Below are positions 10,894 to 64,000 of a stretch of 64,000 bases of DNA, in pieces. This DNA is from Candidatus Melainabacteria bacterium. Lineage in GTDB: Bacteria; Cyanobacteriota; Vampirovibrionia; 2-02-FULL-35-15. Numbering within the stretch: position 1 is the stretch's first letter; every line of letters starts with the position of its first letter. The notes beneath the pieces are model-generated. The model had not been told where the DNA came from. It ran no database searches and worked only from the letters and a program-made list of their open reading frames with translations. The stretch covers positions 62,001 to 126,000 of the forward strand of contig JAHFBF010000003.1 in assembly GCA_023250195.1 (NCBI GenBank). The letters run 5' to 3'. The position numbers and the translations under genes are program-made.

Positions 10894-10907
10894 AAGGGGA
10901 AATGAAG

Positions 10908-13142: not shown

Positions 13143-13173
13143 GCTAAACATAGGTATAAGTGAGGTTATTAAT

Positions 13174-13266
13174 ATGGATCTAGAAAAAATAGATAAAAGA
13201 TGTAAATCAACAAAGTTAAACGGTACAAAGCGTAATAGCGATAAAAAGCTGCATAGAATAGTTTAA
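13174..13266 (+). CDS. Possible tiny basic peptide (30 aa)
   Basis: ATG 13174 follows GTGAGG by 8 nt. The 30-residue product is almost all charged (LEKIDKRCKSTKLNGTKRN). It lies between primase and recombinase and could be an excisionase-like factor, or not a gene at all. Confidence 0.3.
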   Translation: MDLEKIDKRCKSTKLNGTKRNSDKKLHRIV

Positions 13267-13335
13267 AACGGACTAATTGTTGAAAACAGCACCACATGCA
13301 GGTTTCATAGGTTGTAGAGATTTATAATATTTATT

Positions 13336-15012
13336 ATGAATAAAAAAGAAAAACCAATTAAATACATTCTATATGCCAGAAAATCTACTGAATCAGAAGA
13401 TAAACAGGTTCAATCTATTGAAGATCAAGTAAATAAAATGACTGAAATGGCTCAGCAGAAGGGTTTACAAATTATAGATGTATTGTGGGAAACCAAGTCA
13501 GCTAAAACCCCTTTTAAAAGAGATAAGTTTAATGAACTAATTAAAAGAGTTAAAGCAGGTGAAGCTGATGGGATACTAACATGGGCGATTAATAGGCTTT
13601 CAAGAAATGCCTTTGAGACGGGAGTGATACATCAGATGTTACAGGATGGAATCATTAAGTCTATATGGACATGCACTGGAGAACATAAATCAGGGGATAA
13701 CGTTTTAATTTTTTATATGCTCGGTGGTATGGCAAACCTGGACATTCAAATTACTAGCATTAGTACAAAACGTGGGTTAGAAAGTAAGATTGAAAAAGGT
13801 TGGCTACCTACTATTGCACCTATTGGGTATTTGAATAATAAGTTTAAAGACAAGGGAGAAAAGGATATTGTAAAAGATCCTGAACGATTTTCCATAGTTA
13901 GAAAAATGTGGGACTTAATGCTTACAGGAAATTATACAGTGCCACATATACTTAATATTGCCTATGAGAATTGGGGACTAAGAACAGTTAAAAGAAAAAG
14001 AATTGGTGGAACTAAACTTTCTAAATCAGGCTTATATAAAATCTTTACTAATCCGTTTTATGCAGGAATACTTGAATGGAAAGGGGAAAGATACCCTAAT
14101 CCAGGTAAGCATGAATCTATGATTACTCTTGAGGAGTTTTATAGAGTCCAGTTTATATTAGGTAAAAGAGGCAAGCCTAGAGTAACAAAACATCAACATA
14201 AATATAATGGTGTTCTTAAGTGTGCTGAATGTGGTTGTAGTTTCACTGGTGATCTAAAAAGAAAATATGCAAAGACTACAGGTAAATTAACTGAGTACAT
14301 ATTCTATAAATGCACTAAGAAGAAGCCTAACTATGATTGTCAAAACAGAAAGCATATAAGACAAGAAAAAATGGAAATGCAGATACAAGAAGCATTAAAC
14401 AATCTTTCTTTGATTCCTGACTTGTGTAAATGGTCTATTGAAACTTTAAAAATGACTAATGAAAAAGAGTTCGAAGAAAGGGAAGATATTCATAAGAGTT
14501 TAAATAGTGCCATTATTAATACTCAAAAACAATTAGATAATTTATTACAACTTAGAATAAGTGAATTAATTACAGATGAAGAATATAAGGGAAAAAGAGC
14601 TACACTTCAGGATGAGCTGTTTAGACTTAGGGAAAATTTAAGAGGTACAGAAGAAAGAGCTGATAAGTATCATCAGTTAGTCGAGGACGCTTTTGATTAT
14701 GTTACTTATGCAAAAGTCTGGTTTGATAAAGGTACTTACGAAGAGAAGAGATCAATAATGTCAACGTTAGGGTCGAACTTTTTGATAAACATTGGGGAAC
14801 TGCTAGTAACTAACAAAAATTGGATAGATTTGATTAAAGAGAAGTATGCTCCGGTAACGGATGAATATCGAAGGATCGAACTGGCTCATTCTGACAAATA
14901 CTTAACCGAAAATGAAAAACGGGAGCTTTTTGCTCCCGTAATTTCTAAACTCCTCCCAGGAGTGGGATCGAACCACCGACCAATCGGTTACTATCTGACT
15001 TCAATTTCTTGA
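13336..15012 (+). CDS. Large serine recombinase (site-specific integrase)
   Basis: 558 aa. The resolvase domain comes first with catalytic serine S17 (YARKSTES) and partner arginines in INRLSRNAFETG. It is followed by the recombinase domain (about 180-290), a zinc ribbon (CAECGCSF ... CTKKKPNYDC) and a coiled coil (about 385-440), the standard order for integrases of phages and integrative elements. The C-terminal tail (LLPGVGSNHRPIGYY) is antisense translation of the tRNA-Asn gene: the ORF continues past the tRNA terminator into the tRNA and its intron. The native C-terminus was therefore probably altered at integration, or the ORF simply reads into the chromosome. It marks the right end of the element. 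Confidence 0.92.
   Translation: MNKKEKPIKYILYARKSTESEDKQVQSIEDQVNKMTEMAQQKGLQIIDVLWETKSAKTPFKRDKFNELIKRVKAGEADGILTWAINRLSRNAFETGVIHQMLQDGIIKSIWTCTGEHKSGDNVLIFYMLGGMANLDIQITSISTKRGLESKIEKGWLPTIAPIGYLNNKFKDKGEKDIVKDPERFSIVRKMWDLMLTGNYTVPHILNIAYENWGLRTVKRKRIGGTKLSKSGLYKIFTNPFYAGILEWKGERYPNPGKHESMITLEEFYRVQFILGKRGKPRVTKHQHKYNGVLKCAECGCSFTGDLKRKYAKTTGKLTEYIFYKCTKKKPNYDCQNRKHIRQEKMEMQIQEALNNLSLIPDLCKWSIETLKMTNEKEFEEREDIHKSLNSAIINTQKQLDNLLQLRISELITDEEYKGKRATLQDELFRLRENLRGTEERADKYHQLVEDAFDYVTYAKVWFDKGTYEEKRSIMSTLGSNFLINIGELLVTNKNWIDLIKEKYAPVTDEYRRIELAHSDKYLTENEKRELFAPVISKLLPGVGSNHRPIGYYLTSIS
14919..14939 (-). terminator. Rho-independent terminator of tRNA-Asn, inside the recombinase ORF
   Basis: On the minus strand ACGGGAGC-AAAAA-GCTCCCGT followed by TTTTC, 13 nt beyond the tRNA 3' end. 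The perfect 8-bp stem and T-run suit termination of the tRNA transcript. It lies inside the 3' part of the recombinase ORF. Confidence 0.75.
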
Positions 15013-24431: not shown

Positions 24432-27046
24432 AATACTAACCCCATTCCTTCTGTTTCAGCAATAGCTGCCTTTATACTATTTTTGCTTAACATCTGTACT
24501 ACTTCATTTAAATCACTTTCACAAAACCAGATTCTGAATTTTGCAATTTGTTTTAATTCAGAAACTAACAGGTTATATTCTAGTAAGTCATTAAAGTTCT
24601 GTCGAGAAGGATTTGAAATATTGATATTTAAGTTACCGTTATTCTTCTTATAAGATAAAAACCCAATTTTTACAAGTGTTTCCAGAGCAAATGCAAGAGC
24701 AGTTTTATTAATGCCAAGAGCAGCTTGTAATTCTGATTCAGTTACTGTTGAGTCTTTGTTGTTTACTGTGTATTTTAATAAACCGCTAAGATTCTTTAAT
24801 AAGTGTGTAGGGGCAGACCATGTTGGGGCAGACCATGTTGGGGCAGACCAATGTGTCTGCCCTGATGTAAAAGAAAGATAAACCGTTTCAGCATTGGATA
24901 ATTTTATAAGATCAATAAAAATATCTTCATCAGGCGGAGATTCCAGGAAAATAAGATTTTTAGCTTCAGGAATATTGGTTCTTGAATTTGTTTTTAATGG
25001 CAGATAATCCTTTTGTTTGGTTTCTGCAAAATAAGTTACAGATTCTTGTGTTGACGCAAGGAGTCCCAAGCATTCTTGTGTCTTTCCGCGAAAGTCATAA
25101 ATTCTGATAAAGCTTTCTTTTTTGATCTTCTGATTTTTGATTCTCTGATTCTCTAGCATTTGCCAGTCCTTAATTTCAAGCTGTATGAAAGTTTCTCCAT
25201 TAAAATGATTTAATTTTGGAGTATAAACGATTTTAATTTTTTCTCCAAGATTAAACGGGATTTTACTGTCGTGATTCCAGATTAGAGCTTCAAAAATGAG
25301 AGGTGAGAGATGAGAGGTGAGAGATGAAAATTCTTTTTTCTGATCTCTGATCTCTGATCTCTGATCTCTTAATTGTAGTTTCAAATGTTGTCCAGTTTTT
25401 CCAATACTTCTCATTCCGGAAATCTCAACTTCGTCGCTTACAAAAACCGGCAATGGATTTCCTAGTCCAAATGGTGATAGCTTATATATTTTTTCCAGCA
25501 AATCCAGATTCAGTTCACTAAGTGACAGTCCTGAATCTATTTTTATTATGGCTTCAAGGGTTTCATTGGCAAGTTTTTTATCTACAAAGTTTTTAAAATC
25601 AAAAATAAAATTACTTATCTTTTCTGGTTTAATGCTAAGTCCGCATGCAGCTTTATGTCCGCCATATTTTTCAAGATGAGTGGAGCTGTTTATAAGTGCT
25701 TCAACAATATTTAATTTTTCAATACTTCTTCCTGACCCGCGAGCAGTATTTTGTTCATTATCAATTGCAATTAATATGGTGGGTAAATGGAACTTTTCAA
25801 CCACTCTTGACGCTACTATGCCAATTACACCGTGATGCCAGTTTTCTTTTGCTAAAACTATGCACTTATCATTTTTAATATCTACCTGTTCGGAAATAAG
25901 CAACATCGCTTCCTTAAGTGTTTCTTCACAGATTAATTGTCTTTCTTTATTTTGTGATTCAAGCTCACATGCAATTTGCACAGCTTCAAACAAATCATTT
26001 GTAGTTAAAAGTTTTACAGCACGTGCGGCATCTGTTAATCTGCCTACTGCATTAATCCTGGGAGCAATTCCAAAACCAATGTGTTCAGCATTTGGTTTAT
26101 TTGCACTCTCTTCTTTAAGACATCCGCACATTTTAAGGAGTTCTTGTAGACCAATTTTCTTTGTCTTTGCTAGCTTTTTTAGCCCGACTTGAACTAAATA
26201 TCTATTTTCATCTAAAAGTGGAGCAAGATCAGCTATCATCCCAAGCGCTACAAGATCGAGAAGATCTTCTTTTGTTACGTCATTGCGAGGAGGCACAAAG
26301 TGCCGACGTGGCAATCTCCCTAACGTTTTGGAGATTGCTTCGTCGCTTTGCTCCTCGCAATGACGTAATGCGAATTTCTGTTCTAATATTGATTCAGCTA
26401 ACTTATAAGCCACTCCCACACCTGGCAGCCAGTGCAGCTTGTGATCCGGTGGCAATAATTTTGGATTTAAAACAGCATGTGCAGGTGGCAAAATTTCCGG
26501 GAGTGAATGATGATCGGTAACTATAACATCCATTCCAAGCTCATTTGCAAGTTCGACTTCTTTATGATTTGTTATTCCACAGTCACAGGTAATTAATAAT
26601 TTTGTTTTGTTTTTCTTGGACATTGTTTTAACAGCTTCAATGTTTAACCCATAACCTTCTGTCAATCTGCTTGGAATATAAAAGTCAATATTTTCAGTAA
26701 ATTGTCTGAGAGTAGTTAGCAGACAGGCAGTAGAGGTTACTCCGTCTACATCATAATCACCAAAGATGGTTATATTTTCTTTTTTATTTAGAGCTTTTAT
26801 GATTCGATCTTTTGCTTTTATTAATTCAGGGATTTCTTCAGGTTTTGATTCTTTATAAAAATCAGGATTTAAGTAAGCTTTTGCAGCTTCAGGTGAAGTG
26901 ATATTTCTGTTTAACAATAACTTTGCAATAATTTCAGAACCATAAGCAATATCAAGAAACTCTTTTGTGATTTCTTTTTGTTCTTTTATTAGCCACTTGT
27001 ATTTCAAATTATTTTTATTTCCTTGCTTCTCTTCCTCTTTTATCAA
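24428..27046 (-). CDS. recJ: Single-stranded-DNA exonuclease RecJ, enlarged by repeat insertions
   Basis: 872 aa against about 570 usual. It degrades 5' single-stranded DNA in recombination and mismatch repair. DHH-family motifs: FGDYDVDGVTS (96-106), CDCGITNH, VTDHH (177-180). DHHA1 and OB regions follow (YGGHKAACGLSI, SPFGLGNPLPVF). Three foreign pieces are visible: residues about 227-258 (HCEEQSDEAIS ... PPRNDV) from the 90-bp inverted repeat, LRDQRSEIRDQ from heptamers in the OB region, and triple WSAPT from a tandem repeat. A C-terminal extension of about 230 residues is poorly conserved and includes an ATP-independent helicase-like alpha/beta region and a winged helix. Confidence 0.93.
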   Translation of the reverse strand: MIKEEEKQGNKNNLKYKWLIKEQKEITKEFLDIAYGSEIIAKLLLNRNITSPEAAKAYLNPDFYKESKPEEIPELIKAKDRIIKALNKKENITIFGDYDVDGVTSTACLLTTLRQFTENIDFYIPSRLTEGYGLNIEAVKTMSKKNKTKLLITCDCGITNHKEVELANELGMDVIVTDHHSLPEILPPAHAVLNPKLLPPDHKLHWLPGVGVAYKLAESILEQKFALRHCEEQSDEAISKTLGRLPRRHFVPPRNDVTKEDLLDLVALGMIADLAPLLDENRYLVQVGLKKLAKTKKIGLQELLKMCGCLKEESANKPNAEHIGFGIAPRINAVGRLTDAARAVKLLTTNDLFEAVQIACELESQNKERQLICEETLKEAMLLISEQVDIKNDKCIVLAKENWHHGVIGIVASRVVEKFHLPTILIAIDNEQNTARGSGRSIEKLNIVEALINSSTHLEKYGGHKAACGLSIKPEKISNFIFDFKNFVDKKLANETLEAIIKIDSGLSLSELNLDLLEKIYKLSPFGLGNPLPVFVSDEVEISGMRSIGKTGQHLKLQLRDQRSEIRDQKKEFSSLTSHLSPLIFEALIWNHDSKIPFNLGEKIKIVYTPKLNHFNGETFIQLEIKDWQMLENQRIKNQKIKKESFIRIYDFRGKTQECLGLLASTQESVTYFAETKQKDYLPLKTNSRTNIPEAKNLIFLESPPDEDIFIDLIKLSNAETVYLSFTSGQTHWSAPTWSAPTWSAPTHLLKNLSGLLKYTVNNKDSTVTESELQAALGINKTALAFALETLVKIGFLSYKKNNGNLNINISNPSRQNFNDLLEYNLLVSELKQIAKFRIWFCESDLNEVVQMLSKNSIKAAIAETEGMGLVL
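24808..24865. repeat. Tandem GGGGCAGACCATGTT repeat in recJ
   Basis: Two and a half copies of a 15-bp unit ending in a partial inverted copy (TGTCTGCCC). It encodes WSAPT three times. The 15-bp unit keeps the frame. The same GGGCAGAC/GTCTGCCC palindrome occurs at 53902. Confidence 0.8.
25335..25372. repeat. AGAGATC heptamer repeat inside recJ
   Basis: CTGATCTCTGATCTCTGATC on the plus strand, four units, encoding RDQRSEIRDQ in the OB-fold region. A related set (GATTCTCTGATTCTCTAG) lies at 25137 and GAGAGATGAGAGGTG at 25305. Confidence 0.8.
26277..26366. repeat. 90-bp inverted repeat (CATTGCGAGGAG family) inside recJ
   Basis: Outer arms ACGTCATTGCGAGGAG and CTCCTCGCAATGACGT are a perfect 16-bp inverted repeat; inner arms GGCAATCTCC and GGAGATTGC also pair. 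It adds about 30 in-frame residues. Other copies: 38039, 41877, 44551, 55333, 57030. Confidence 0.9.
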
Positions 27047-38035: not shown

Positions 38036-38038
38036 GTG

Positions 38039-38124
38039 TCATTGCGAGGAGCGTTAGCGACGAAGCAATCCCAGGCTAACTTGCGCAAAGATTGCCACGT
38101 CTCACTTTGTTCGGCTCGCAATGA
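38039..38124. repeat. CATTGCGAG inverted repeat between aroQ and obgE
   Basis: TCATTGCGAGGAGC... GGCTCGCAATGA outer arms with GAAGCAATCCC/AGATTGCC inside. It starts 4 bp after the aroQ stop and leaves 22 bp before obgE. Confidence 0.9.
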
Positions 38125-38146
38125 CGTATTGAGATAGAATATTTAT

Positions 38147-51170: not shown

Positions 51171-52553
51171 ATGTTTTTTTCTGATGAAGAAAATTCTGCC
51201 AGTAGAAATTTTATTATTACAGCAGTTATATGGTTAGTAGTTGGAATGACACTAGGTTTAACCGGTGCGTTGGAATTTACTGCTCCTGATATGAGTACGG
51301 GAATCGCTCAGTTAACCTTCTCCAGAATAAGACCTGCACATGTCAACACTGTTGCTTTTGGCTGGTTATCAATGGCAAATATTGGAATTGTTCTTTATAT
51401 AATTCCTACTCTGACCAGATCAAAACTTTTCAGTAATAAACTTGCAAACTTTGTTTGTCTTCTCTGGAATCTTGCAATTCTATTTGGTGGATTGTGTCTG
51501 GTAAACGGTTATACGGAAGGTCGAGAATATGCCGAATACCCGGTTCCTATTGATGTAGTAGTAATTATTGGATTACTTACGCTTTCATTTGTCGTTTATA
51601 TGACGGCTATAACAAGGACAGTAAAAAAACTATATGTAAGTCTTTGGTATATGCTCGGGGCATTTTTCTGGATGCCTATTGTTTATTTTATTGGAAACAG
51701 GACTTTTATAAGATTAGACGGATTAAATGATGGGATCGTAAACTGGTTTTATGGACATAATATTTTAGGAATGTGGTTTACCACGCTTGGTGTTGGGATT
51801 GCATATTATATGATTCCAAAATTAAGTGGTCGTCCACTATGGAGTCATAGCTTATCTATGCTTGGTTTCTGGACAATTGCATTTTTCTATGCACCTACAG
51901 GGACACATCACATTCTTCAGTCGCCTGTTCCTGAATGGTTAAAAGCGCTTGCAGTAGTATTTAGTGTTGCACTTGTTATTCCTGTTATTACGGTGCTTAC
52001 AAACTTTTGCATGACAATGAAAGGAAACTGGTGGCAGCTTGCAAATAATTTACCTCTGCGTTTTGTTTTAACAGGAGCTTTCTTTTATTTTACTACCTGT
52101 ATCCAAGGTCCTTTTCAGGCGACCAGGTCTATTAACTGGTACCTTCACTTTACACAGTGGGTTGTAGGACATGCTCATGTAGCGCTTCTTGGTACATTTA
52201 CATTTTTTGATTTTGGAGCTATCTATTATATCTTGCCTAGAATTTTAAAGAGACAAATTTATAGTGTTGCTTTAGCAAGGGCACATTACTGGTTTACACT
52301 AATTGGGTTTTTAATCTTTTTTGCGGCAATGACAATTGGTGGATTGGTTCAGTCAGCAGGATGGCACTTAGGAATTCCAGTCAGCCAGTGGGGACTTGAA
52401 ATGCCTCCATACTGGGTATTCCGTGCAATTGGTGGAAGCCTGATGTGGTTTGGAAATATTTTATTCCTTATTAATGTAATCCAAACTGCAAGAGGTGTTA
52501 AGCCGCTTAATCCTCCAGATATAGAACCTGCAATGTCACCGGCAAAGGGATAG
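51171..52553 (+). CDS. ccoN: cbb3-type cytochrome c oxidase subunit I
   Basis: 460 aa. Catalytic subunit reducing O2 to water in the membrane, with low-spin heme b and the heme b3-CuB centre. Ligand regions: RPAHVNTVAFGW (low-spin heme), YGHNILGMWFTT and GTHHILQSPVP (CuB), GHAHVALLGTF (both hemes). It has about 12 transmembrane helices. The first gene of a plus-strand cluster that runs to about 59.1 kb, with gaps of 5 bp or less or overlaps near its start. Confidence 0.95.
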   Translation: MFFSDEENSASRNFIITAVIWLVVGMTLGLTGALEFTAPDMSTGIAQLTFSRIRPAHVNTVAFGWLSMANIGIVLYIIPTLTRSKLFSNKLANFVCLLWNLAILFGGLCLVNGYTEGREYAEYPVPIDVVVIIGLLTLSFVVYMTAITRTVKKLYVSLWYMLGAFFWMPIVYFIGNRTFIRLDGLNDGIVNWFYGHNILGMWFTTLGVGIAYYMIPKLSGRPLWSHSLSMLGFWTIAFFYAPTGTHHILQSPVPEWLKALAVVFSVALVIPVITVLTNFCMTMKGNWWQLANNLPLRFVLTGAFFYFTTCIQGPFQATRSINWYLHFTQWVVGHAHVALLGTFTFFDFGAIYYILPRILKRQIYSVALARAHYWFTLIGFLIFFAAMTIGGLVQSAGWHLGIPVSQWGLEMPPYWVFRAIGGSLMWFGNILFLINVIQTARGVKPLNPPDIEPAMSPAKG

Positions 52554-52558
52554 GGTAA

Positions 52559-53524
52559 ATGAATTCAAACAACAAAAATTATATTCTTCCCGCAATAGTA
52601 ATTTTGTTTTCATTTAGCATGATTATGTTTTCTACAGTACTTTTGCCAAATATGATTTTTAAACCAAAGCCTTCTGAATTTGCAGTAAAGTATACTCCTC
52701 TTGAAGCGCGCGGAAGAAAAATTTATATGAAAGAAGGCTGTGTTTATTGCCATAGTCAGTTTGTAAGACCTCAGGATAGAGACTTTGGACCACTTGTTAT
52801 GGCTGGTGATTATGTATATGAAACACCAAATTTATTAGGAACGATTAGAACTGGTCCTGATCTTTCAAATGAAGGGGGTAAGCATCCTGATGCATGGCAC
52901 CTTGCACACTTTAAAAATCCAAGAACAGTAACTCCTGGTTCAGTAATGCCTCCATTTGTTTACTTAAAAGATGATGAAATGAAAGCTCTTATTGCTTATG
53001 TCCAATCAATAGGCAAAAAGAGACTTGTAAAATATCAGAGAATCTATCATCCTGATGAACTTGACAAAGTTCTGGAAAAAAGAAAAGTTAATGTAGATAG
53101 CTCTGCTGCTGCAAATGCTGGAAGAGGAATTTTCCAGCAGAACTGTGCTACATGCCATGGTACTCATGGGCTTGGAAATGGTCCAAATGCAATTGCTATT
53201 GGTAAAAAACCGGCAAACTTTTCAAGACCATTTTATAAAGATTATGATGATGTAACCTGGTTCTGGAGAGTCTCAGAAGGTGTTCCCGGAACAAGAATGC
53301 CTCAGTGGGAAAGACTTCTAACTGCAGAGCAGAGATGGTATCTTGTCGCATTTTTAAAGACCATTCCAAGAGAAAATGAAGTTTATCCAAAAGCATATGA
53401 AAATCTTAATGCTGAAAAATGGGTTGAGCAAAATATAATTTCCGAGAAAGAGTTGAATTCTCAAAAACCGGCAATGATTATTGAAACGAAGGGTCCGCCA
53501 CCGGCAGCAGGAGGGGGACATTAA
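52559..53524 (+). CDS. CcoO-like cytochrome c subunit with an added second cytochrome c domain
   Basis: 321 aa. One N-terminal membrane helix (ILPAIVILFSFSMIMFSTVLLP), a CcoO-type heme c domain (CVYCH at 61-65 with SQFVRPQDRDFGP following, as in CcoO), then a second heme domain with CATCH (196-200) of the CcoP type and axial Met candidates (PGTRMPQWE). No separate CcoP is in the cluster, so this protein likely fills both roles with two hemes instead of three. Its stop overlaps the next start. Confidence 0.88.
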   Translation: MNSNNKNYILPAIVILFSFSMIMFSTVLLPNMIFKPKPSEFAVKYTPLEARGRKIYMKEGCVYCHSQFVRPQDRDFGPLVMAGDYVYETPNLLGTIRTGPDLSNEGGKHPDAWHLAHFKNPRTVTPGSVMPPFVYLKDDEMKALIAYVQSIGKKRLVKYQRIYHPDELDKVLEKRKVNVDSSAAANAGRGIFQQNCATCHGTHGLGNGPNAIAIGKKPANFSRPFYKDYDDVTWFWRVSEGVPGTRMPQWERLLTAEQRWYLVAFLKTIPRENEVYPKAYENLNAEKWVEQNIISEKELNSQKPAMIIETKGPPPAAGGGH

Positions 53525-53945: not shown

Positions 53946-54749
53946 ATGGGGCGTAAAAAACAAATAACAGGAATATTAAAGACAGTCACACTAGTAATGT
54001 CCATTGTAATAGTGGGGATTTTAATTACTGCCTGCCAATCAAATTTGAATATAAATAAAGTAGCACTACCATCTAATCAAAAACCATTAATCAGTCAAAA
54101 AGGTACTCAGGAAGATTTTGCATACCCTACAAAAGATCCATCGATAGTAGAGGGCAAAAAATTATTTGGTCAGAATTGTGCTTCATGTCATAGTTTTGGG
54201 AATCAGGGTGGAAAGAATGTATTCACTCTTAAATACATAAATAGTGTTACTCCTTCTCACTTATTTAAAACGATTACAAGCAGTGATAAACATGAATCAT
54301 TTAAAGATAAACTAAACAGGCAGGAAAGATGGGAGCTGGTTATGTACCTGCGCTCTGAACTGTTTGGTTTGCCAAAAGATTTTGAAGATGTAAAAATAAA
54401 ATTTGGAAGTAATTGTGCTGTATGTCATGGTACAAGAGGTTTTGCAGATGGACCTATTCATTACTATTTAAATCCTCCTCCTGCAAACTTCAATGAGTTT
54501 GACAGACTTTATGAAAAAACCGATGCAAAGATCTTTGATGAAATCTCAAATGGGATTCCCTGGACAGCAATGCCTCCATGGGCAAACAGAGTTGATAAAG
54601 ATAAGCATTTTACATTTGATGATAAGTTCAGATGGGAGCTTGTTAAGTATGTAAGGAGCTTTGGTTATTCTACTGAAAAAGATGCTTTGCTTGAGCTTTT
54701 AAAGCCTGATAAAAAGGTTCAGTCAGAAAAAGTTGAAGAGGATAAATAA
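53946..54749 (+). CDS. Diheme cytochrome c lipoprotein
   Basis: 267 aa. Signal with lipobox LITAC (lipidated C30), so it is an exported membrane-anchored protein. Two heme c sites, CASCH (78-82) and CAVCH (157-161), each with a following Met-containing loop (GIPWTAMPPWA for the second). It stands between the oxidase genes and the Rieske gene, so it probably carries electrons from the Rieske/cytochrome b complex to CcoO. 2 bp before the next start. Confidence 0.88.
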   Translation: MGRKKQITGILKTVTLVMSIVIVGILITACQSNLNINKVALPSNQKPLISQKGTQEDFAYPTKDPSIVEGKKLFGQNCASCHSFGNQGGKNVFTLKYINSVTPSHLFKTITSSDKHESFKDKLNRQERWELVMYLRSELFGLPKDFEDVKIKFGSNCAVCHGTRGFADGPIHYYLNPPPANFNEFDRLYEKTDAKIFDEISNGIPWTAMPPWANRVDKDKHFTFDDKFRWELVKYVRSFGYSTEKDALLELLKPDKKVQSEKVEEDK

Positions 54750-54751
54750 AA

Positions 54752-55318
54752 ATGGATTTTGAAACAACAAGGCGAAATTTATTAAAAGGAATATTAGCAA
54801 TTCCTGTTTTAGGAACATTAGCTGCTGCTGTATCTCCTTTTATGAGGTTTTTAAAACCTACCATTAAACCTCTGAATTATATGCAGGGACCGGATTTGCC
54901 AAAGTCTTTAAAGCCAGTAATGTTTGATCTCTCTTTATTTACAAAACCATTTGATGTTCAGTCATTTAATTTTACACAGGTAAATAAAGAATATACTGCG
55001 CTTGGTACACAGATGAGAGACATACCGGGATATGCTGTAAAACTTCCAAGTGGAGAATTTGCAGTTTACAGTAGAATCTGTCCTCATCTTGGCTGTGTTT
55101 TTAACTTTGTTCCAAATCCTGATGATGTGGCAAAAGGTTATAACTTTAGACCAGATGGACCAGTGTTTGCATGTCCATGCCATTTAAGTGTTTTTGATAT
55201 TCAAAAAGAAGGACAGGTTGTTTCAGGTCCTGCACCAAGGCCACCAAGAAAATTTGTTTATAAAATCGAAAACAATCAGTTAATTATTAGTGATCTTGAG
55301 AGTGGAGGGGTTGCATAA
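54752..55318 (+). CDS. Rieske [2Fe-2S] protein
   Basis: 188 aa. N-terminal Tat-type anchor (TTRRNLLKGILAIPVLG), then the Rieske fold with CPHLGC (110-115) and CPCH (141-144), the cysteine and histidine ligands. The 24 residues between them include an extra loop (NPDDVAKGYNFRPDG). It oxidises quinol at the Qo site and passes electrons to cytochrome c. In order with the two cytochrome b genes downstream. Confidence 0.95.
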   Translation: MDFETTRRNLLKGILAIPVLGTLAAAVSPFMRFLKPTIKPLNYMQGPDLPKSLKPVMFDLSLFTKPFDVQSFNFTQVNKEYTALGTQMRDIPGYAVKLPSGEFAVYSRICPHLGCVFNFVPNPDDVAKGYNFRPDGPVFACPCHLSVFDIQKEGQVVSGPAPRPPRKFVYKIENNQLIISDLESGGVA

Positions 55319-55332
55319 TATGATGTTTGGTG

Positions 55333-55417
55333 TCATTGCGAGAAACGTTAGTGACGAAGCAATCTCCAAAGCGTTAGGGAGATTGCCGCGTCGGCACTTT
55401 GTGCCTCCTCGCAATGA
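55333..55417. repeat. CATTGCGAG inverted repeat between Rieske and cytochrome b genes
   Basis: TCATTGCGAG...CTCGCAATGA outer arms; inner GCAATCTCC/GGAGATTGC. It fills most of the 115-bp gap in an otherwise tight cluster. Confidence 0.9.
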
Positions 55418-55433
55418 CGTGAATAGGTAATTT

Positions 55434-56774
55434 ATGATCGACAAATTAAAAGAAATTGGAAAACAGCAATTTGAAACCTCTAAAAAGTGGGTTTTGGACC
55501 ACATTAATAATATTGATATTTTTGATGAGCACTATGTAGATAAAGCAAAGACAAATCCCTGGTATACGCTGGGTTCACTGGTATGGTTATTCTGGATGAT
55601 AACAATTATTTCTGGTTGTGTTTTAATGGCAATTTATATTCCATCTATAAATGAAGCTTATGATTCAATTGTTAAAATACAGTTCCAAATTCCTTTTGGT
55701 GCAATAATCAGAGGTGTTCATAAGTATGGAGCAGATGCGGTTATTATCGCAGCCACGATTAGGCTTTATAGAATTTTTATTGCATGTGACTATAAACCAA
55801 ATAGGGAGTTTAATGTAGCAATTGCACTTCTTACTTTATTGCTTGGAATGTATTCAGGTTTGACCGGCTATCTTCTAATCTGGAATCAGCGAGCGTTCTG
55901 GGCTACAAAGGTTTTTGCAACCTTTCCTACTTATGTCGAAAGTTTTTATCTTCTTGGTCCTACACATGTTGGCATAAATACTTCACAAATTCTTTTAGGC
56001 GGAAGTTCAATTGGACAGGCTACAATGACAAGATTTTATTCTTTTCATACAGCATTTACCCTGATTCCATTGATTATTGTTGAACTGTACTTTTATAGAA
56101 ATGGACTTAAGAGATTTAATATTCCCTGGAAATTAGCTTTAATTCCCATTTTCATGGTATTTATTACTGCAATTGTTCTTCCTGCACAAATTGGTCACAG
56201 AGCAGATCCCAGCGTAACACCGCTGCCGATTTTATCCGACTGGTACTTCCTGGCACTTTATCAATTCTTGAAATATATGGAGCCTGTCTGGGCAACTGCT
56301 CTTACAGTGTTGATTCCAGCGACTGTAGTTGTTCTTCCATTCTTGGATCTTGGATCAGAAACAAGAATATTAAAAAGACCAATATTTTTAATGGTAACCA
56401 TAATGGGCTTTATTCAGTTCTTGGTTTTTTCAGGATTAATAATTATGAACATTGCAAATATTCACAGAGATCCACCTATTTGGAGAGCTGGAACCTGGAT
56501 ATTGATTGCCGTTGGAGTTGTATGGCAGTATATTAATCAAAAGACTGAAAGACCCGAAAAGCTGTTTGTAGCAATTGGTGACTTTATTGCATATGTAGTT
56601 TGTCCTCTTTTTGTTTTGTACTGGGTATTTCCCACACTCTTAAATGGCTGGATAACTTTAAAGCAACAGCTTGAGGGAGTGGGTATTTGTATGATTCCTG
56701 CGGTGATTGCTTATACATGGCATTTGCTTATTAGGAAAAAACTTGTAAAACCACAGGAAGCAGTGCTGGCATGA
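55434..56774 (+). CDS. Cytochrome b, divergent: only one bis-histidine heme pair
   Basis: 446 aa, full-length cytochrome b with about 9-10 membrane helices, Qo-type motif SDWYF and GYLLIWNQRAFWA. In helix B the pattern H-x13-H is broken: GVHKYGADAV keeps the first histidine, but the position 14 on is Arg (ATIRLYR). In helix D FHTAFTL keeps the first, but position 14 on is Tyr (VELYFYR). So one heme (the bL-type pair) can bind and the other (bH-type) cannot by the usual ligands. The second cytochrome b gene in this cluster has all four. Confidence 0.9.
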   Translation: MIDKLKEIGKQQFETSKKWVLDHINNIDIFDEHYVDKAKTNPWYTLGSLVWLFWMITIISGCVLMAIYIPSINEAYDSIVKIQFQIPFGAIIRGVHKYGADAVIIAATIRLYRIFIACDYKPNREFNVAIALLTLLLGMYSGLTGYLLIWNQRAFWATKVFATFPTYVESFYLLGPTHVGINTSQILLGGSSIGQATMTRFYSFHTAFTLIPLIIVELYFYRNGLKRFNIPWKLALIPIFMVFITAIVLPAQIGHRADPSVTPLPILSDWYFLALYQFLKYMEPVWATALTVLIPATVVVLPFLDLGSETRILKRPIFLMVTIMGFIQFLVFSGLIIMNIANIHRDPPIWRAGTWILIAVGVVWQYINQKTERPEKLFVAIGDFIAYVVCPLFVLYWVFPTLLNGWITLKQQLEGVGICMIPAVIAYTWHLLIRKKLVKPQEAVLA

Positions 56775-57130
56775 TGAAAAAAATGAAGATAACTAGAATT
56801 TTTACTTTTTGTTTGTCAGTTTATTTTCTGTCTGTTTTTTTTGAAGCCGGCAGATTGCTTGCTTATGAAAAAACATTTATTCACTTAGGAATTTCGCTCT
56901 TTTCAGGATTCATGTTTATTCTTTCTCTCTTAGTAATAGGCTATTGGGTGTACAGTGAAGAAAAAGAAAAAAATAATCTAAAGGTAAAATTTGGTTTATA
57001 TGAATGGTTCTACAATCTTCCGATTAACGTCATTGCGAGAAGCAAAGCGATGAAGCAATCTCATAACGTTAGTGGATTGCCGCGTCAGCACTTTGTGCCT
57101 CCTCGCAATGACAAAGAAGTGGTAGCATGA
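56771..57130 (+). CDS. Small membrane protein, C-terminus made by an inverted repeat
   Basis: 119 aa, starting within the stop of the cytochrome b gene. Two hydrophobic segments (FTFCLSVYFLSVFF; LGISLFSGFMFILSLLVIGYWVY). The last 33 residues (NVIARSKAMKQSHNV... PPRND) are encoded by a copy of the CATTGCGAG repeat, so the native end is lost. The natural protein was probably about 85 residues. Confidence 0.6.
   Translation: MMKKMKITRIFTFCLSVYFLSVFFEAGRLLAYEKTFIHLGISLFSGFMFILSLLVIGYWVYSEEKEKNNLKVKFGLYEWFYNLPINVIARSKAMKQSHNVSGLPRQHFVPPRNDKEVVA
57030..57111. repeat. CATTGCGAG inverted repeat inside the 56771 gene
   Basis: TCATTGCGAGAAGC ... GCCTCCTCGCAATGA, with GCAATCTC/GGATTGC inside. Encodes the ARSKAMKQS and PPRND stretches. 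Confidence 0.9.
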
Positions 57131-57345
57131 AAGCACTCATCCAATTATTAATAGCTGGTTTATGTGCTCTTGGCACAATGGTGATTTTATTTCTTTTAGC
57201 AACCAGTGAGTTAAGCTACAGAGATATAACATTTGCAAAGTATTTTGGAATGCTTGGAGTTCTTGCAGCAATAGCGTTTGTTGTTTTGACAAATAATGAT
57301 GATAACGAAGAGACTAATCCAGGAAAGGAGAAGTTGAAAAAATAA
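57127..57345 (+). CDS. Small two-helix membrane protein
   Basis: 72 aa, overlapping the previous stop by 4 bp (ATGA). Two membrane helices (LIQLLIAGLCALGTMVILFLLA; YFGMLGVLAAIAFVVLT) and a charged tail (NNDDNEETNPGKEK). A likely small subunit of the cytochrome b complex; no family recognised. Ends 3 bp before the second cytochrome b gene. Confidence 0.6.
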   Translation: MKALIQLLIAGLCALGTMVILFLLATSELSYRDITFAKYFGMLGVLAAIAFVVLTNNDDNEETNPGKEKLKK

Positions 57346-57348
57346 AAT

Positions 57349-58479
57349 ATGTACAGGAAAATCTTAGACAAACTGCAAGTACTAACAATTGACTTTGAAA
57401 AGTTCTTAAATAAAGTATTTAGTCAACAATATAATCCTTTCTATTACCATGGTGCAGTGCCAAATCTTTTCATGTGGACATTATTTATAACAGGACTTTT
57501 ATTGTTTGCCTACTTTCAACCTACCTTAGACAGTGCTTATATTTCAGTAAATTATATTTCTACAAAGATTCCATTTGGGCAGATAGTGCGTGGATTACAT
57601 AGATATGCTGCAGATGCAATGGTGATTGCAGTATTAATTCATGCTATCAGGGTCTTCTTTACTGATAGATATAGAAAATATCGTTGGATTGCATGGTATT
57701 CAGGAGTTGCACTTTTGCTTTGCATGTTTGTCATTGGTGTAACTGGATATGTGCTTGTCTGGGATGAGCGTTCTTATATGATTGTTTTAATGATGACAGA
57801 TGCTCTGAATCAAATACCCTTTATAGGACAGACACTTGCAAAATTATTTGTAAATGGTGAAGTAATCACTCATTACACAATGGCAATGTCATTTTTTATA
57901 CATGTTGGAATTTCATTCTTCCTTTTATATTTAATTTGGTTACACTATGTAAGAATCTCAAGACCGGTTACAGATGTTCCGCTTGGGCTTGGAATGTTGC
58001 TTTTTTCATTGATAATGATTCCTGCAGCTCTTATTCCTGTAGTGAGTGGAAAACCTGCAGTGCTTACTGAAACACCACATGAGTTTCCTATCGACTGGTT
58101 TTATCTCTGGATTTTCCCTTTATTTTCAGGAATGCCGGCTTTAATAGTCTGGACTGGCTTATTTGTAGCAGTAGCAATTTTGCTTCTTGTTCCATATTTG
58201 ATAGTGGATATTCCAAAATCACCAGCTGCAGTTTCACTGGATAATTGTGTGGGATGTACTCTCTGTGCAAAGGATTGTCCATATGAAGCTATTTACATGG
58301 TTCCAAGGACAGATCATCCAAAGTATAAACAGCTTGCAATAGTAATAGATTCTCGTTGTGCTGAATGTGGTCTTTGTGTTGGAGCATGTGCATTTAAAGC
58401 AATTGATTTACCGCAAAAGCATTCAAAAGAAATCATTGCAAAGATTGGTGATGTCTTAAAGGAGCCGATTACGGTGTAG
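57349..58479 (+). CDS. Cytochrome b fused to a C-terminal 2x[4Fe-4S] ferredoxin domain
   Basis: 376 aa. The first 285 residues are a cytochrome b with both histidine pairs at 14-residue spacing: GLHRYAADAMVIAVLIHAIR in helix B and FFIHVGISFFLLYLIWLHYVR in helix D. GYVLVWDER and PIDWFY correspond to the Qo region. A short linker leads into CVGCTLCAKDCP and CAECGLCVGACA, two [4Fe-4S] sites on the cytoplasmic side. That would link the high-potential quinone chain to a ferredoxin-like low-potential carrier. Confidence 0.92.
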   Translation: MYRKILDKLQVLTIDFEKFLNKVFSQQYNPFYYHGAVPNLFMWTLFITGLLLFAYFQPTLDSAYISVNYISTKIPFGQIVRGLHRYAADAMVIAVLIHAIRVFFTDRYRKYRWIAWYSGVALLLCMFVIGVTGYVLVWDERSYMIVLMMTDALNQIPFIGQTLAKLFVNGEVITHYTMAMSFFIHVGISFFLLYLIWLHYVRISRPVTDVPLGLGMLLFSLIMIPAALIPVVSGKPAVLTETPHEFPIDWFYLWIFPLFSGMPALIVWTGLFVAVAILLLVPYLIVDIPKSPAAVSLDNCVGCTLCAKDCPYEAIYMVPRTDHPKYKQLAIVIDSRCAECGLCVGACAFKAIDLPQKHSKEIIAKIGDVLKEPITV

Positions 58480-58525: not shown

Positions 58526-58909
58526 ATGACAAACAAAAAAAAGAAAATATTAGGTATAGTTTGCGAACGAAGTGTTGATTTAAAAAAACACATTCAAAAG
58601 AACAAGCTTAAAGACAAAGACAATGTATCTATTGTAGAACTTACCTGTTCCGGGATGATTCAGCCAGTAATGCTTGAAGAAGCTTTTAAACAGGGTGCTG
58701 AGGGTGTTTTTGTAATGGGATGTCAGATTGGGGACTGTCATTTTCGTGAAGGAAATAAATGGTGTCAGGAAAGATTACTTGGACAAAGACCCCCAAATAT
58801 TAAAAAAACAGTAGATAAAAATAAAGTCAGAGGATATTGGCTGGCAAAATGTGATTATAAAAAATTTCTGGATAAGGTTAATAAATTTGAGGAAGATTTG
58901 TGTAAGTAG
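58526..58909 (+). CDS. MvhD/FlpD-like iron-sulfur protein
   Basis: 127 aa, the family's usual length. Motifs: ELTCSGMIQPVMLEEAFKQGAEGVFVMGCQIGDCHF, then GNKWCQERL and a late AKCDYKKF: a [2Fe-2S]-type cysteine set. MvhD/FlpD hands electrons from hydrogenase or formate dehydrogenase to HdrA-type flavoproteins in electron bifurcation. There is no hdrA here; the ferredoxin-fused cytochrome b directly upstream is a plausible partner. Ribosome site: GGGTAAG. Confidence 0.85.
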   Translation: MTNKKKKILGIVCERSVDLKKHIQKNKLKDKDNVSIVELTCSGMIQPVMLEEAFKQGAEGVFVMGCQIGDCHFREGNKWCQERLLGQRPPNIKKTVDKNKVRGYWLAKCDYKKFLDKVNKFEEDLCK

Positions 58910-59308: not shown

Positions 59309-60454
59309 ATGTTATCAGCGGCAGCAATCGGAAGAGCATTGTTTTGGCCAACAGGATGTCCACAGCCTCCTGTTGGAGAAGATCCTGACCAGTTCGCAAC
59401 AAAATGGATAAAAGAAAATCCAAATGTAGGAGTTTATAAAACATCATCTCGAGCAACTTATATTGGAGCTGGCATTACTGTTGTAGGGTTACTAACTGGA
59501 ATTAGCGGGTATTTCAAAGACAATAAATTTCTAAAGAATTTTGGATGGGGACTTGGAGCTCTTGGTTTTATTGCAACTATGGTTGGAAAGATGTGTGGAT
59601 TTGAATTTGATATACCAAAAACTATTAAAAATACTATTGTTACCGGTGGTACTTGTAGACCTCAAAAAACACCCGTTGAGGTTGGAATAGAAGCAGACAA
59701 GGTTGAAAAAGCAGATATAACATCACATGGTGAAAAACTTGATGGGTACTTTATCAAAGCAAAAACAGAAACAAAGAAAACTTTAATTTATGTTCATGGT
59801 GTAAGAAACAATGTGGGAGACTGCCTTGAGGAAATTAAAAAGATTCGTGAAAACTTGAATGTAAATATTTTAGTTGTTGATCCAAGAGGCTTTGGCAATA
59901 GCAAATTAGGGAGTTCTGAATTAACTGCAGAAGGACTGGTTGATGATGTAAAAGCAATGTATGAATTTGTTGAAGCAAAATATGGTTCCGAAAATATTTC
60001 AGCATTTGGGCACTCGTTAGGGGGAGCAATTTTAGTTCAGCTTGCTCAGGAAAAAGAAATTGATACTTTAATTCTTCAATCTACATTTACCAAGAGTGAT
60101 GAGGCTATAGCTTCATTTGGAAATGGAACATTGCCTAAATTTGTTACTGACTTTATAGCAGGGCGTAGTATGGTCCCATTTAACTCTATAGATTCTATTA
60201 ATAAGGTTAAAGCAAAAAATGTTGTTATTGCTCACGGAACAACAGATTCAACAATTGCAGATAAACAGGGAAAGGATTTGTTTGACAAGCTTACAAAGTT
60301 CTCTGATACAAATAAAAAATACTTTGAATTAATTGGTGCAACTCATGCAAACTATAATGATTACTATAAAGATGCTGGCGTTTATGATGTTTTAAATGAG
60401 TTTATTTGTGATGAAGCTGTTGCTGACAGCAAAGAGCCGGTTGGCAAAATATGA
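59309..60454 (+). CDS. Membrane-anchored alpha/beta hydrolase (paralogue 1)
   Basis: 381 aa. The first 100 residues include two hydrophobic segments (YIGAGITVVGLLTGISGYF; WGLGALGFIATMVGKMCGF). The hydrolase domain follows: KKTLIYVHGVRNN, nucleophile elbow AFGHSLGGA, acid HGTTDSTI, histidine GATHANYNDYY. The paralogue at 61757 has the same layout. Likely an esterase or thioesterase at the membrane; substrate unknown. Confidence 0.8.
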   Translation: MLSAAAIGRALFWPTGCPQPPVGEDPDQFATKWIKENPNVGVYKTSSRATYIGAGITVVGLLTGISGYFKDNKFLKNFGWGLGALGFIATMVGKMCGFEFDIPKTIKNTIVTGGTCRPQKTPVEVGIEADKVEKADITSHGEKLDGYFIKAKTETKKTLIYVHGVRNNVGDCLEEIKKIRENLNVNILVVDPRGFGNSKLGSSELTAEGLVDDVKAMYEFVEAKYGSENISAFGHSLGGAILVQLAQEKEIDTLILQSTFTKSDEAIASFGNGTLPKFVTDFIAGRSMVPFNSIDSINKVKAKNVVIAHGTTDSTIADKQGKDLFDKLTKFSDTNKKYFELIGATHANYNDYYKDAGVYDVLNEFICDEAVADSKEPVGKI

Positions 60455-61756: not shown

Positions 61757-62911
61757 ATGTCAAGCGCATCAGCAGTAAGTTGGTTTCATACACCGGTTGG
61801 GTATCAAAGGGCTCCGAACGCACCGTCGCCAAATAAAAAAATTGTCCAAAAATGGCTGATTGAAAATAAAAATCTAAACTTTTTTGAAAAAAATTCTTAT
61901 GGTACATATATTGGAGCACTTATAACTTTACTTGGTATTATAAGTACAATTTTTGGTATTAAAAAAGATAATCCTTTTTTTAAATGGACTGGAATAATTC
62001 TTGGTTTGTCCGGAGCTGTTACCACTGTAATTGGTAAGCTTTGTGGTTGTGAATATGATGGGCTTGAAAAACTTAGGAATAAGGCTATCATTCAACCAAA
62101 CAGCAACATTGAAAAAACGCCAAAAGAATTAGGTATACCGCACGAAGAAATTTCTATTGATACGCCTGAATCAGTTTTAAAAGGTTACTATTTCCCCAAT
62201 CCAATAGAAACAAAGAAAACAGTTATTATACTTGGTGGTAGCAGATATAGTTTAAGTAAGTCATATGAAAAAGTAAAAATGATTCAATCTGAAGTCCCTG
62301 TAAACATCGTAATGGTTGATTATAGGGGCTTTGGGAATAGTACTTCAAAAGATGGAACAGTAACCTTTCAAGGTTTGATTAATGATGCAAGGGAAATCTA
62401 TGATTACATAGTAAGAGAGAAAAAATTGACTGCAGATGAAATTAATATATTTGGAGCTTCATTAGGTGGTGCTGTTTCAATTGAATTAGCAAATCAAGAA
62501 GGAGTAGACATAAATACTCTTGTTGTTCAATCATCTTTTACAAAGACCAAAGATGTAGGTGAATCATTAGTTGGGAAGGTTACTAGTTCAAAGCTTGTAC
62601 AAAATCTAGGCTCTTCTTTAATTGAAACTGATTTTGACTCAGAAGTAAAAATAAAAACGGTAAGAGCTAAAAACATTATTGTTTGCCATGGTAAAGAAGA
62701 TGAATTTATTCCCCATACTCAAGGTGAAAGGTTATTTAATGCCATTACTCTGGCTGATGCTAACAAATGTTATGTAATTTTAGATGGCTCTAAACATGAT
62801 GATTTCATGGATTATTACTTTAGTGATAAGAAAAATGGTCTGATTTTATTTGAGGCTTTTAGGACATTCGTTGATAATTCAACTTTGCCTACTACTGCAC
62901 GAGCAGCTTAA
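61757..62911 (+). CDS. Membrane-anchored alpha/beta hydrolase (paralogue 2)
   Basis: 384 aa, the same plan as the 59309 protein: a short N-terminal motif (FHTPVGYQRAP versus FWPTGCPQPP), two hydrophobic segments, then VIILGGSRYS, nucleophile elbow FGASLGGA, acid CHGKEDEF and histidine GSKHDDFMDYY. The oxyanion strand lacks the HG seen in paralogue 1 (LGGSR instead), so the substrates may differ. No ribosome site obvious. Confidence 0.8.
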   Translation: MSSASAVSWFHTPVGYQRAPNAPSPNKKIVQKWLIENKNLNFFEKNSYGTYIGALITLLGIISTIFGIKKDNPFFKWTGIILGLSGAVTTVIGKLCGCEYDGLEKLRNKAIIQPNSNIEKTPKELGIPHEEISIDTPESVLKGYYFPNPIETKKTVIILGGSRYSLSKSYEKVKMIQSEVPVNIVMVDYRGFGNSTSKDGTVTFQGLINDAREIYDYIVREKKLTADEINIFGASLGGAVSIELANQEGVDINTLVVQSSFTKTKDVGESLVGKVTSSKLVQNLGSSLIETDFDSEVKIKTVRAKNIIVCHGKEDEFIPHTQGERLFNAITLADANKCYVILDGSKHDDFMDYYFSDKKNGLILFEAFRTFVDNSTLPTTARAA

Positions 62912-62925
62912 GTTCTTATGTTAAG

Positions 62926-63348
62926 TTAAATATCTATTCCCAAATCCACAAAGCTCTTTGATATCCCTTTATAAGAATCTATAGTATCTGTAAACTCATC
63001 AGGATTAATTAATGTAGCAAGGCTTGCATCATTTCTGGCAGGTGTTTCAAAAACCTGTTCGTTTCCGTTTTCATCTTTTGTAGTCCAGATTGTTTTGTCT
63101 TTGTAAGCACGTGCTTTTAATATCCCCGGTTTACCGGTAATTTCAAATGGCAGTCTTATATCAATAGCCTGCTGAGGACAAATTTTTATACATGCTGCAC
63201 AATCCCAGCAATCAGCGTTACAGGTGATTTGTGCTTTTCCATTTGGCTGCATGAAAATAAGATCTCCCGGACAAGCCATGTTACATGGGGTTTCATGTTC
63301 TGGAAACCCGCAGCCGTTGCATAGATTTTGATCGATGTAAATGCCCAT
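62926..63348 (-). CDS. AprB-like 2x[4Fe-4S] protein (adenylylsulfate reductase beta-like)
   Basis: 140 aa from ATG 63348; the ORF track's longer start lies inside a palindrome. Two cluster motifs: CNGCGFPEHETPCNMACP and CNADCWDCAACIKICP. The following IDIRLPF and the region TIWTTKDENGNEQVF match the AprB C-terminal half. It should pass electrons to the AprA-like flavoprotein encoded just upstream. Adenylylsulfate reductase interconverts APS with sulfite and AMP; whether the direction is assimilatory or dissimilatory cannot be read here. Confidence 0.8.
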   Translation of the reverse strand: MGIYIDQNLCNGCGFPEHETPCNMACPGDLIFMQPNGKAQITCNADCWDCAACIKICPQQAIDIRLPFEITGKPGILKARAYKDKTIWTTKDENGNEQVFETPARNDASLATLINPDEFTDTIDSYKGISKSFVDLGIDI

Positions 63349-63356
63349 AAGTTTAA

Positions 63357-64000
63357 TTATAAAGGTGTAGGGACGTTGCATGCAACGTCCCTACTTCGTT
63401 CTATGATTTTAATTTCATCCTTTCTTTGATCATAAATTGAGTTAACAAATTTCAGCCAGTTTTTATCATCACGTTCAGGATAATCGGCTCGGCTCTGGTA
63501 AATAGGCCACCTGGTTTCTTTTCTGTATAAAAGATGTTCTATAAGTACACTTGCTACATCCAGTCTGTCTATAACTTCATGACACTTCATAAGTTCATGT
63601 AGAGATATAGTTACACCATCTTTACTTGCAAAAAGATTTTTTGATTCTTCTTTTAATTGTTTTATATGTTTCCTGCCTTTTAATAATTTTTGTTCATTTA
63701 AAATATAACCACTGGTTACTCCGCCTGCATATTCATCCATAACTTTCTGCATGCGTAATTCCAATTCGTCCGGCTGTAGAGACGTTGCGTGCAACGTCTC
63801 TAACAGGGGATTAAAGACCCTTTTCATTTCATCTTTTATATCCTTTTCATAAATTTGTTCTTCATTTATATTTTTTAATTTTGAAACGATGTTTCTAGCT
63901 GCAATTATTCCTTCAGCACCGGCACCGGATAAATATTTTTTTGGAGCTCCACCGGCTACATCACCTGCAGCATAAAGGTTTTCAATGGTTGCCATCCTGT
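63357..64000 (-). CDS. AprA-like flavoprotein (adenylylsulfate reductase alpha-like), C-terminal part
   Basis: The frame continues past the right edge, so the M at 63995 is internal. Seen: NLYAAGDVAGGAPKKYLSGAGAEGIIAARN, the FAD-binding C-terminal motif of fumarate reductase/AprA-type proteins, then a helical C-terminal domain (about 150 residues) with YRKETRWPIYQSRADYPE. Two palindromes have entered it: 63776 encodes LETLHATSLQ, and 63367 forms the last residues. The next gene (AprB-like) starts 9 bp downstream. Confidence 0.8.
   Translation of the reverse strand, partial: RMATIENLYAAGDVAGGAPKKYLSGAGAEGIIAARNIVSKLKNINEEQIYEKDIKDEMKRVFNPLLETLHATSLQPDELELRMQKVMDEYAGGVTSGYILNEQKLLKGRKHIKQLKEESKNLFASKDGVTISLHELMKCHEVIDRLDVASVLIEHLLYRKETRWPIYQSRADYPERDDKNWLKFVNSIYDQRKDEIKIIERSRDVACNVPTPL
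63367..63394. repeat. Perfect 28-bp palindrome at the aprA/aprB junction
   Basis: GTAGGGACGTTGCATGCAACGTCCCTAC, 14-bp arms. It encodes the final residues of the AprA-like protein (DVACNVPT). Confidence 0.9.
63776..63803. repeat. GTAGAGACGTTGC palindrome inside the AprA-like gene
   Basis: GTAGAGACGTTGC and GCAACGTCTCTAAC arms around GT. In frame. Same arms as 63367 except A for G at one place. Confidence 0.88.

Follow-up and report, generated by a model that had tools for sequence, protein, structure and literature searches.

An asymmetric pair of cytochromes b in a Rieske and cbb3-type oxidase gene cluster of Melainabacteria: a predicted naturally cross-inactivated complex III

In bc1 and b6f complexes the first histidines of helices B and D of cytochrome b bind heme bL (low potential) near the quinol oxidation site (Qo), and the second histidines bind heme bH (high potential) near the quinone reduction site (Qi). 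Two neighbouring cytochrome b genes of Candidatus Melainabacteria bacterium raise the question of how such an enzyme could work when one cytochrome b lacks the bH ligands and the other carries a ferredoxin domain. They lie in a stretch of 64,000 nucleotides, here called the window (assembly GCA_023250195.1, contig JAHFBF010000003.1, positions 62,001–126,000 of the forward strand; GTDB lineage Bacteria; Cyanobacteriota; Vampirovibrionia; 2-02-FULL-35-15), and are named A (at 55434) and B (at 57349); both reading frames are intact. The pattern of lost and retained heme ligands, the domain composition, the conservation and co-occurrence of the genes and the loss of the Qo signature in B, all read from sequence, suggest that the cluster probably encodes a naturally cross-inactivated Rieske/cytochrome b (complex III-type) enzyme with two unlike cytochromes b, linked to a cbb3-type oxidase.

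The original prediction held that the second histidine of helices B and D is replaced in A by Arg and Tyr with the first one kept, and this agrees with H96 and R110 in helix B and H205 and Y219 in helix D. The Pfam models PF00033 and PF00032 place A in the cytochrome b family, and its monomer model matches bc1 cytochrome b chains in Foldseek (E about 4e-8). In an alignment with cytochrome b6, whose structure is known, the columns of H86 and H187 hold His in A and that of H100 holds Arg or Lys; in the H100 column both B and the third paralogues of the canonical type carry His. All of 86 distinct A proteins share H96, H205 and E217, and in the same set position 110 is Arg (71) or Lys (15) and position 219 is Tyr (75), Arg (9) or Phe (2). 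A scan of bacteria and archaea with one genome per species returned 107 relatives of A, 80 of them retained, and 20 further loci were added later and compared for ligand columns and gene order. The later loci have Arg or Lys at position 110 and Tyr, Phe, Arg or Leu at 219, with His in one. The comparison thereby comes to about 102 distinct A proteins with a lowest identity of about 34%; His is found at 110 in none and at 219 in one, and the bH pair is kept in none. No other His column that could supply an alternative bH ligand pair is invariant in the A alignment. Because the second histidines are replaced, A is predicted to hold heme bL only, and the rule of two b hemes in every cytochrome b fails for A in all relatives, with the pair present in B. 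The single protein with His at the helix-D position (locus L174, Armatimonadota, genome G333) has Lys at position 110, a combination that resembles an intermediate stage of heme bH loss. A salt bridge between R/K110 and E217 filling the empty bH pocket was considered and is not claimed; E217 is invariant but stands two residues before the ligand position.

B has all four heme histidines (H84, H98, H185 and H199) and two CxxCxxCxxxC clusters at residues 300–310 and 337–347, and the earlier description of a complete cytochrome b with two fused [4Fe-4S] motifs thus holds. The four histidines and eight cluster cysteines are maintained in its relatives; the deviating entries are mainly A proteins picked by mistake where the contig ends before B (loci L066, L070, L106 and L124). 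From the topology of cytochromes b, the ferredoxin domain, which follows the last membrane helix, would be on the cytoplasmic side. The Rieske and diheme cytochrome c genes noted earlier upstream of the cytochromes b are both present, and what had been overlooked is the ccoN/ccoO pair further upstream and an FlpD/MvhD-type gene directly downstream of B (Table 1). The FlpD protein matches MvhD of known structure (E=3.3e-16) and is encoded by a single copy in the home genome, which was searched family by family. A profile of HdrA2 falls with positions 567–642 on the tail of B and with positions 648–772 on FlpD, so that the two together match the contiguous C-terminal third of HdrA2 (its ferredoxin and MvhD parts); no HdrA2-like flavin part or HdrA flavoprotein was found in the home genome with this profile.

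The two proteins also differ at the Qo site. The Qo block W140, Q142, W146, A147 and K149 (b6 numbering) is invariant in 86 of 86 A proteins; B retains Q142 in only 13 of 83, A147 and K149 are replaced, and Trp does not rank with the six most frequent residues at position 146. The motif corresponding to PEWY is SDWY, invariant in the 86 A proteins and degenerate in B. Since block and motif are kept in A and mostly lost in B, the alignments point to A for the Qo work and to B for heme bH and the contact with the cytosol. Third cytochromes b of the canonical type in this group retain all four histidines. In the Rieske protein the ligand cysteines and histidines and Ser146 are invariant among the loci compared, with Tyr or Phe at 148. 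A Rieske protein is thus found together with a cytochrome b that has bL ligands and a Qo motif, as in Rieske/cytochrome b complexes in the broad sense. The cysteine for heme cn (b6 position 35) is absent from both proteins, A having Ala, Ser, Gln, Thr or Lys and B having Tyr or Phe.

A-like and B-like genes lie side by side in 39 of 60 relatives searched, in six families, and 40 regions were retrieved for comparison of gene order. The original prediction had proposed looking for the same order in related genomes, and ccoN-ccoO-diheme c-Rieske-A-(small open reading frame)-B-FlpD recurs in families f1, f2, f3, f4, f7 and f9, with the small frame not detected in every locus. The core unit diheme c-Rieske-A-B-FlpD occurs in four phyla or more, usually preceded by cbb3 oxidase genes, and was found again in the 20 further regions, one of which is cut by a contig end. 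Most relatives of A are from Melainabacteria/Vampirovibrionia (Caenarcaniphilales, Obscuribacterales and Vampirovibrionales including Vampirovibrio chlorellavorus), and the remaining ones from Holophagaceae/Acidobacteriota, Armatimonadota and records labelled only "bacterium" or "Bacillota". The full gene order is kept wherever the contig is long enough, except in L121 and L131, which have no ccoN/ccoO upstream and represent one small phylum with the A gene in 38 of 43 genomes. The gene is rare in the sampled Acidobacteriota (4 of 247 genomes) and Armatimonadota (3 of 251). In a tree of representatives A forms one group (support 100/98) and B another (100/99), apart from the third cytochromes b and b6, and the distances within A and B correlate with r=0.94. 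From these single supported clades and correlated distances, the A/B pair was most likely made once and then inherited together.

Some loci depart from this arrangement. In Obscuribacterales (L021–L028 and others) A is about 600 residues long with a long C-terminal extension, and an additional conserved small membrane gene is located between A and B. Five loci of the fourth phylum (L156, L158, L160, L161 and L164) have a divergent ccoN/ccoO-like pair just downstream of FlpD and not the cbb3 pair upstream.

Of the 39 genomes that bear the pair, 21, some of them incomplete, gave no sign of a cytochrome b besides A and B (G004, G005, G007, G009, G012, G013, G018, G026, G033, G035, G036, G037, G041, G042, G046, G048, G050, G052, G053, G058 and G059). 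In such genomes A and B must therefore do the work of complex III, if anything does. The Pfam model finds only A and B also in the record of V. chlorellavorus (L111, G064), an organism for which complexes I to IV and a cbb3 oxidase have been described (PMC4451040). The home genome has a third cytochrome b of the canonical type. It also has two MqnA/MqnD-type genes (futalosine-type menaquinone), with no MenB over the cut-off, and menaquinone is therefore its likely quinone. NuoD-type genes are present in the home genome, and NuoF, the NADH-binding subunit, was not found there.

In the proposed mechanism menaquinol would be oxidized at the Qo site of A, the first electron passing by the Rieske protein and the diheme cytochrome c to the oxidase, and the second, low-potential electron passing to heme bL of A. 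Because A has no heme bH, this electron would have to cross the bridge of the heterodimer from bL of A to bL of B and from there reach bH of B. Facing the cytoplasm, this last heme would be wired to the two [4Fe-4S] clusters and the [2Fe-2S] protein FlpD, to a quinone site in B, or to both, and the electron could either reduce quinone at B or exit through the wire; alternatively, the wire may bring electrons in. To our knowledge a cross-inactivated design of the complex III kind is otherwise found only in engineered enzymes. In Rhodobacter bc1 with the Qo site knocked out in one half and heme bH in the other, turnover takes place via bL-bL transfer (PMC4330944), and the division predicted here is the same, with Qo active in one half, bH in the other and the bL-bL bridge required. 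The present cluster differs in being natural, ancient and provided with an iron-sulfur outlet, and in that the heterodimer is predicted from the genes.

As to other known systems, the cluster shares with b6f and bc1 the Rieske protein, the cytochrome b fold, the bL ligands, a Qo motif of the PEWY kind and a cytochrome c partner, and differs from them in its two unlike cytochromes b, one without bH, in the cytoplasmic ferredoxin domain and FlpD, and in having no heme cn cysteine. The anammox complexes of Kuenenia (kuste4569-4573 and kustd1480-1485; PMC12954380) are likewise of the Rieske/cytochrome b type with an iron-sulfur path on the cytoplasmic side and a proposed bifurcation, but they have a homodimeric cytochrome b, heme cn and an NAD(P) reductase, where the present cluster has unlike cytochromes b, FlpD and no flavoprotein. 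The likeness to HdrA2 is confined to the C-terminal ferredoxin-MvhD module, which here has no HdrA flavin domain and is joined to a membrane cytochrome b. The cluster would thus extend the known Rieske/cytochrome b kind by unlike halves, one without bH, and by a ferredoxin-FlpD wire.

Several points weigh against this mechanism. An Asp of the Qo region (D249) is retained in most B proteins, and the Qo site of B may therefore not be dead. Distances between all pairs of the four operon members tested correlate at about r=0.9, and such co-inheritance alone does not show that A and B touch. The structure models, made of A and B separately as monomers, are of medium confidence (predicted local distance difference test 69 for A and 71 for B, below 50 in the ferredoxin domain). 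No cytosolic partner of the ferredoxin domain and FlpD was identified among the cluster genes, the recurrent neighbours or in the HdrA and NuoF searches of the home genome. The contact between A and B is what we infer from the genes, and A2 and B2 homodimers could exist in its place. The original prediction of a heterodimer with a redirected low-potential branch has nevertheless gained from the loss of the Qo signature in B and is the most economical reading; its asymmetry, one cytochrome b without the bH pair and one complete with a ferredoxin domain, is conserved across phyla, and its heterodimer remains a prediction, as do the reduction of a ferredoxin-like carrier and the reverse flow that it proposed.

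As a special form of the cross-inactivated heterodimer, the main job might be an outward bifurcation, a possibility to which we give somewhat less than an even chance. The low-potential electron of quinol would travel by way of bH of B, the [4Fe-4S] clusters and then FlpD to an acceptor of low potential in the cytosol, such as ferredoxin or NAD(P), at the expense of the high-potential branch to O2. Removal of bH from A would keep the electron from being spent at the quinone site of A, and the same idea has been argued for the anammox complexes with NAD(P) reductases (PMC12954380). The potential-raising Ser of the Rieske protein is found in all members, and the Tyr in most. Against it, the cluster has no acceptor enzyme, neither HdrA nor NuoF was found in the home genome, and the flow would run against the membrane potential; heterotrophic aerobes moreover need low-potential reductant less than autotrophs do. 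The fullest version, an ancient natural heterodimeric complex III with obligatory bL-bL transfer and O2-coupled quinol bifurcation through an HdrA2-like wire to a low-potential cytosolic acceptor, is rather doubtful.

Electrons may instead enter, from a cytosolic donor over FlpD and the ferredoxin domain to bH of B, with quinone reduced at B and the second electron coming from bL of A, which would make the complex a reductant:quinone and a quinol:cytochrome c oxidoreductase in one. This would resemble a ferredoxin:quinone reductase, the step from iron-sulfur cluster to menaquinone is energetically downhill, and in a genome with NuoD-type genes but no NuoF another entry of cytosolic electrons would be useful. 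The loss of bH from A is left unexplained, and no donor enzyme lies within the cluster. We regard inward flow as plausible though short of probable; sequence alone does not decide between the two directions.

Two separate homodimers are unlikely, that is, B2 as a ferredoxin/FlpD-linked quinone oxidoreductase and A2 as a quinol oxidase subunit that is linked to Rieske and runs no Q cycle. Cytochromes b are normally homodimeric and the tree shows an ancient divergence of A and B, but A and B are always paired and the low-potential electron would have no way out of A2; bc1 in which bH is knocked out is inactive (PMC4330944). That A binds heme bH through other residues or is a decaying copy, both raised by the original prediction, is suggested by the ligand loss in itself and is very improbable, as A has no other invariant His, and a degraded copy is rejected on account of its conservation, which spans four or more phyla and identities as low as 34%, with long Qo blocks invariant in 86 distinct proteins.

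It has been debated whether electrons pass from one half of complex III to the other in living cells, with kinetic evidence from engineered mutants (PMC4330944). The same cross-inactivated design appears to have been made by nature and kept in at least four phyla, and where no further cytochrome b can be detected, as in many of the genomes, electrons would be obliged to cross, which could be put to the test. Through the ferredoxin-FlpD module quinone chemistry would be joined to electron wiring of the HdrA type, in a host group closely related to the oxygenic Cyanobacteria, and a bifurcating heterodimer, if true, would mean quinone-based bifurcation driven by aerobic respiration. Genes petB/petC beside an O2 reductase have been reported in Melainabacteria (PMC6349859), very probably the same neighbourhood; the accessible part of that report makes no mention of missing bH ligands, of a second cytochrome b with a ferredoxin domain or of FlpD, and as only the open literature was covered an earlier notice is possible.

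Table 1. Genes of the cluster, with positions in the window
Feature	Position	Strand	Evidence
ccoN-like cbb3 oxidase subunit I (PF00115)	51171..52553	+	Pfam E=1.4e-86; neighbour in nearly every locus whose contig is long enough
ccoO-like subunit with additional C-terminal cytochrome c domain	52559..53524	+	FixO E=8.6e-38 plus Cytochrom_C
Diheme cytochrome c, two CxxCH	53946..54749	+	heme motifs conserved
Rieske [2Fe-2S] protein	54752..55318	+	PF00355 E=5.1e-8
Cytochrome b A, 446 residues, H96/H205 and R110/Y219, SDWY	55434..56774	+	PF00033 E=8e-25, PF00032 E=6.6e-7
Small membrane open reading frame after A	56771..57130	+	homologues of about 90 residues in most Melainabacteria loci
Cytochrome b B, 376 residues, four heme His, C-terminal two-[4Fe-4S] ferredoxin domain	57349..58479	+	PF00033 E=1.7e-30 plus Fer4
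FlpD/MvhD-type [2Fe-2S] protein, conserved Cys 13, 41, 66 and 71	58526..58909	+	PF02662 E=1.3e-22

Candidates for further cofactors and partners were also considered. A heme at the dimer interface on H34 of B, by analogy with the anammox model, is weakened by Thr at this position in most members of the fourth phylum. HdrA was set aside as partner of FlpD since none was found in the home genome, and no NAD(P) oxidoreductase subunit is present among the cluster genes or the recurrent neighbours inspected. An AprAB-like pair at 62926–63995 on the minus strand, an adenylyl-sulfate reductase-like flavoprotein truncated where the window ends and a ferredoxin subunit, adjoins the cluster in 13 loci, all of family f1; it was rejected as a general partner of FlpD and is a possible one in that family.

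A palindromic repeat of about 75–90 nucleotides, GTCATTGCGAG...CTCGCAATGAC, occurs in the window at 26279–26364, 38038–38125, 44553, 55332–55418 and 57029–57112, with 9 exact arm matches against 0.01 expected. Copies are located in the gap between the Rieske and A genes, within the small open reading frame after A, whose 3' end is extended by the repeat, and within a RecJ-like gene that translates through it as ...RHFVPPRND.... Two similar alpha/beta-hydrolase-like frames near each other on the plus strand (59309–60454 and 61757–62911; 381 and 384 residues) are possibly duplicated. A primase/helicase-like frame followed by a large serine recombinase-like frame (10902–15012, plus strand) is, judged from the translations, likely an integrated element.
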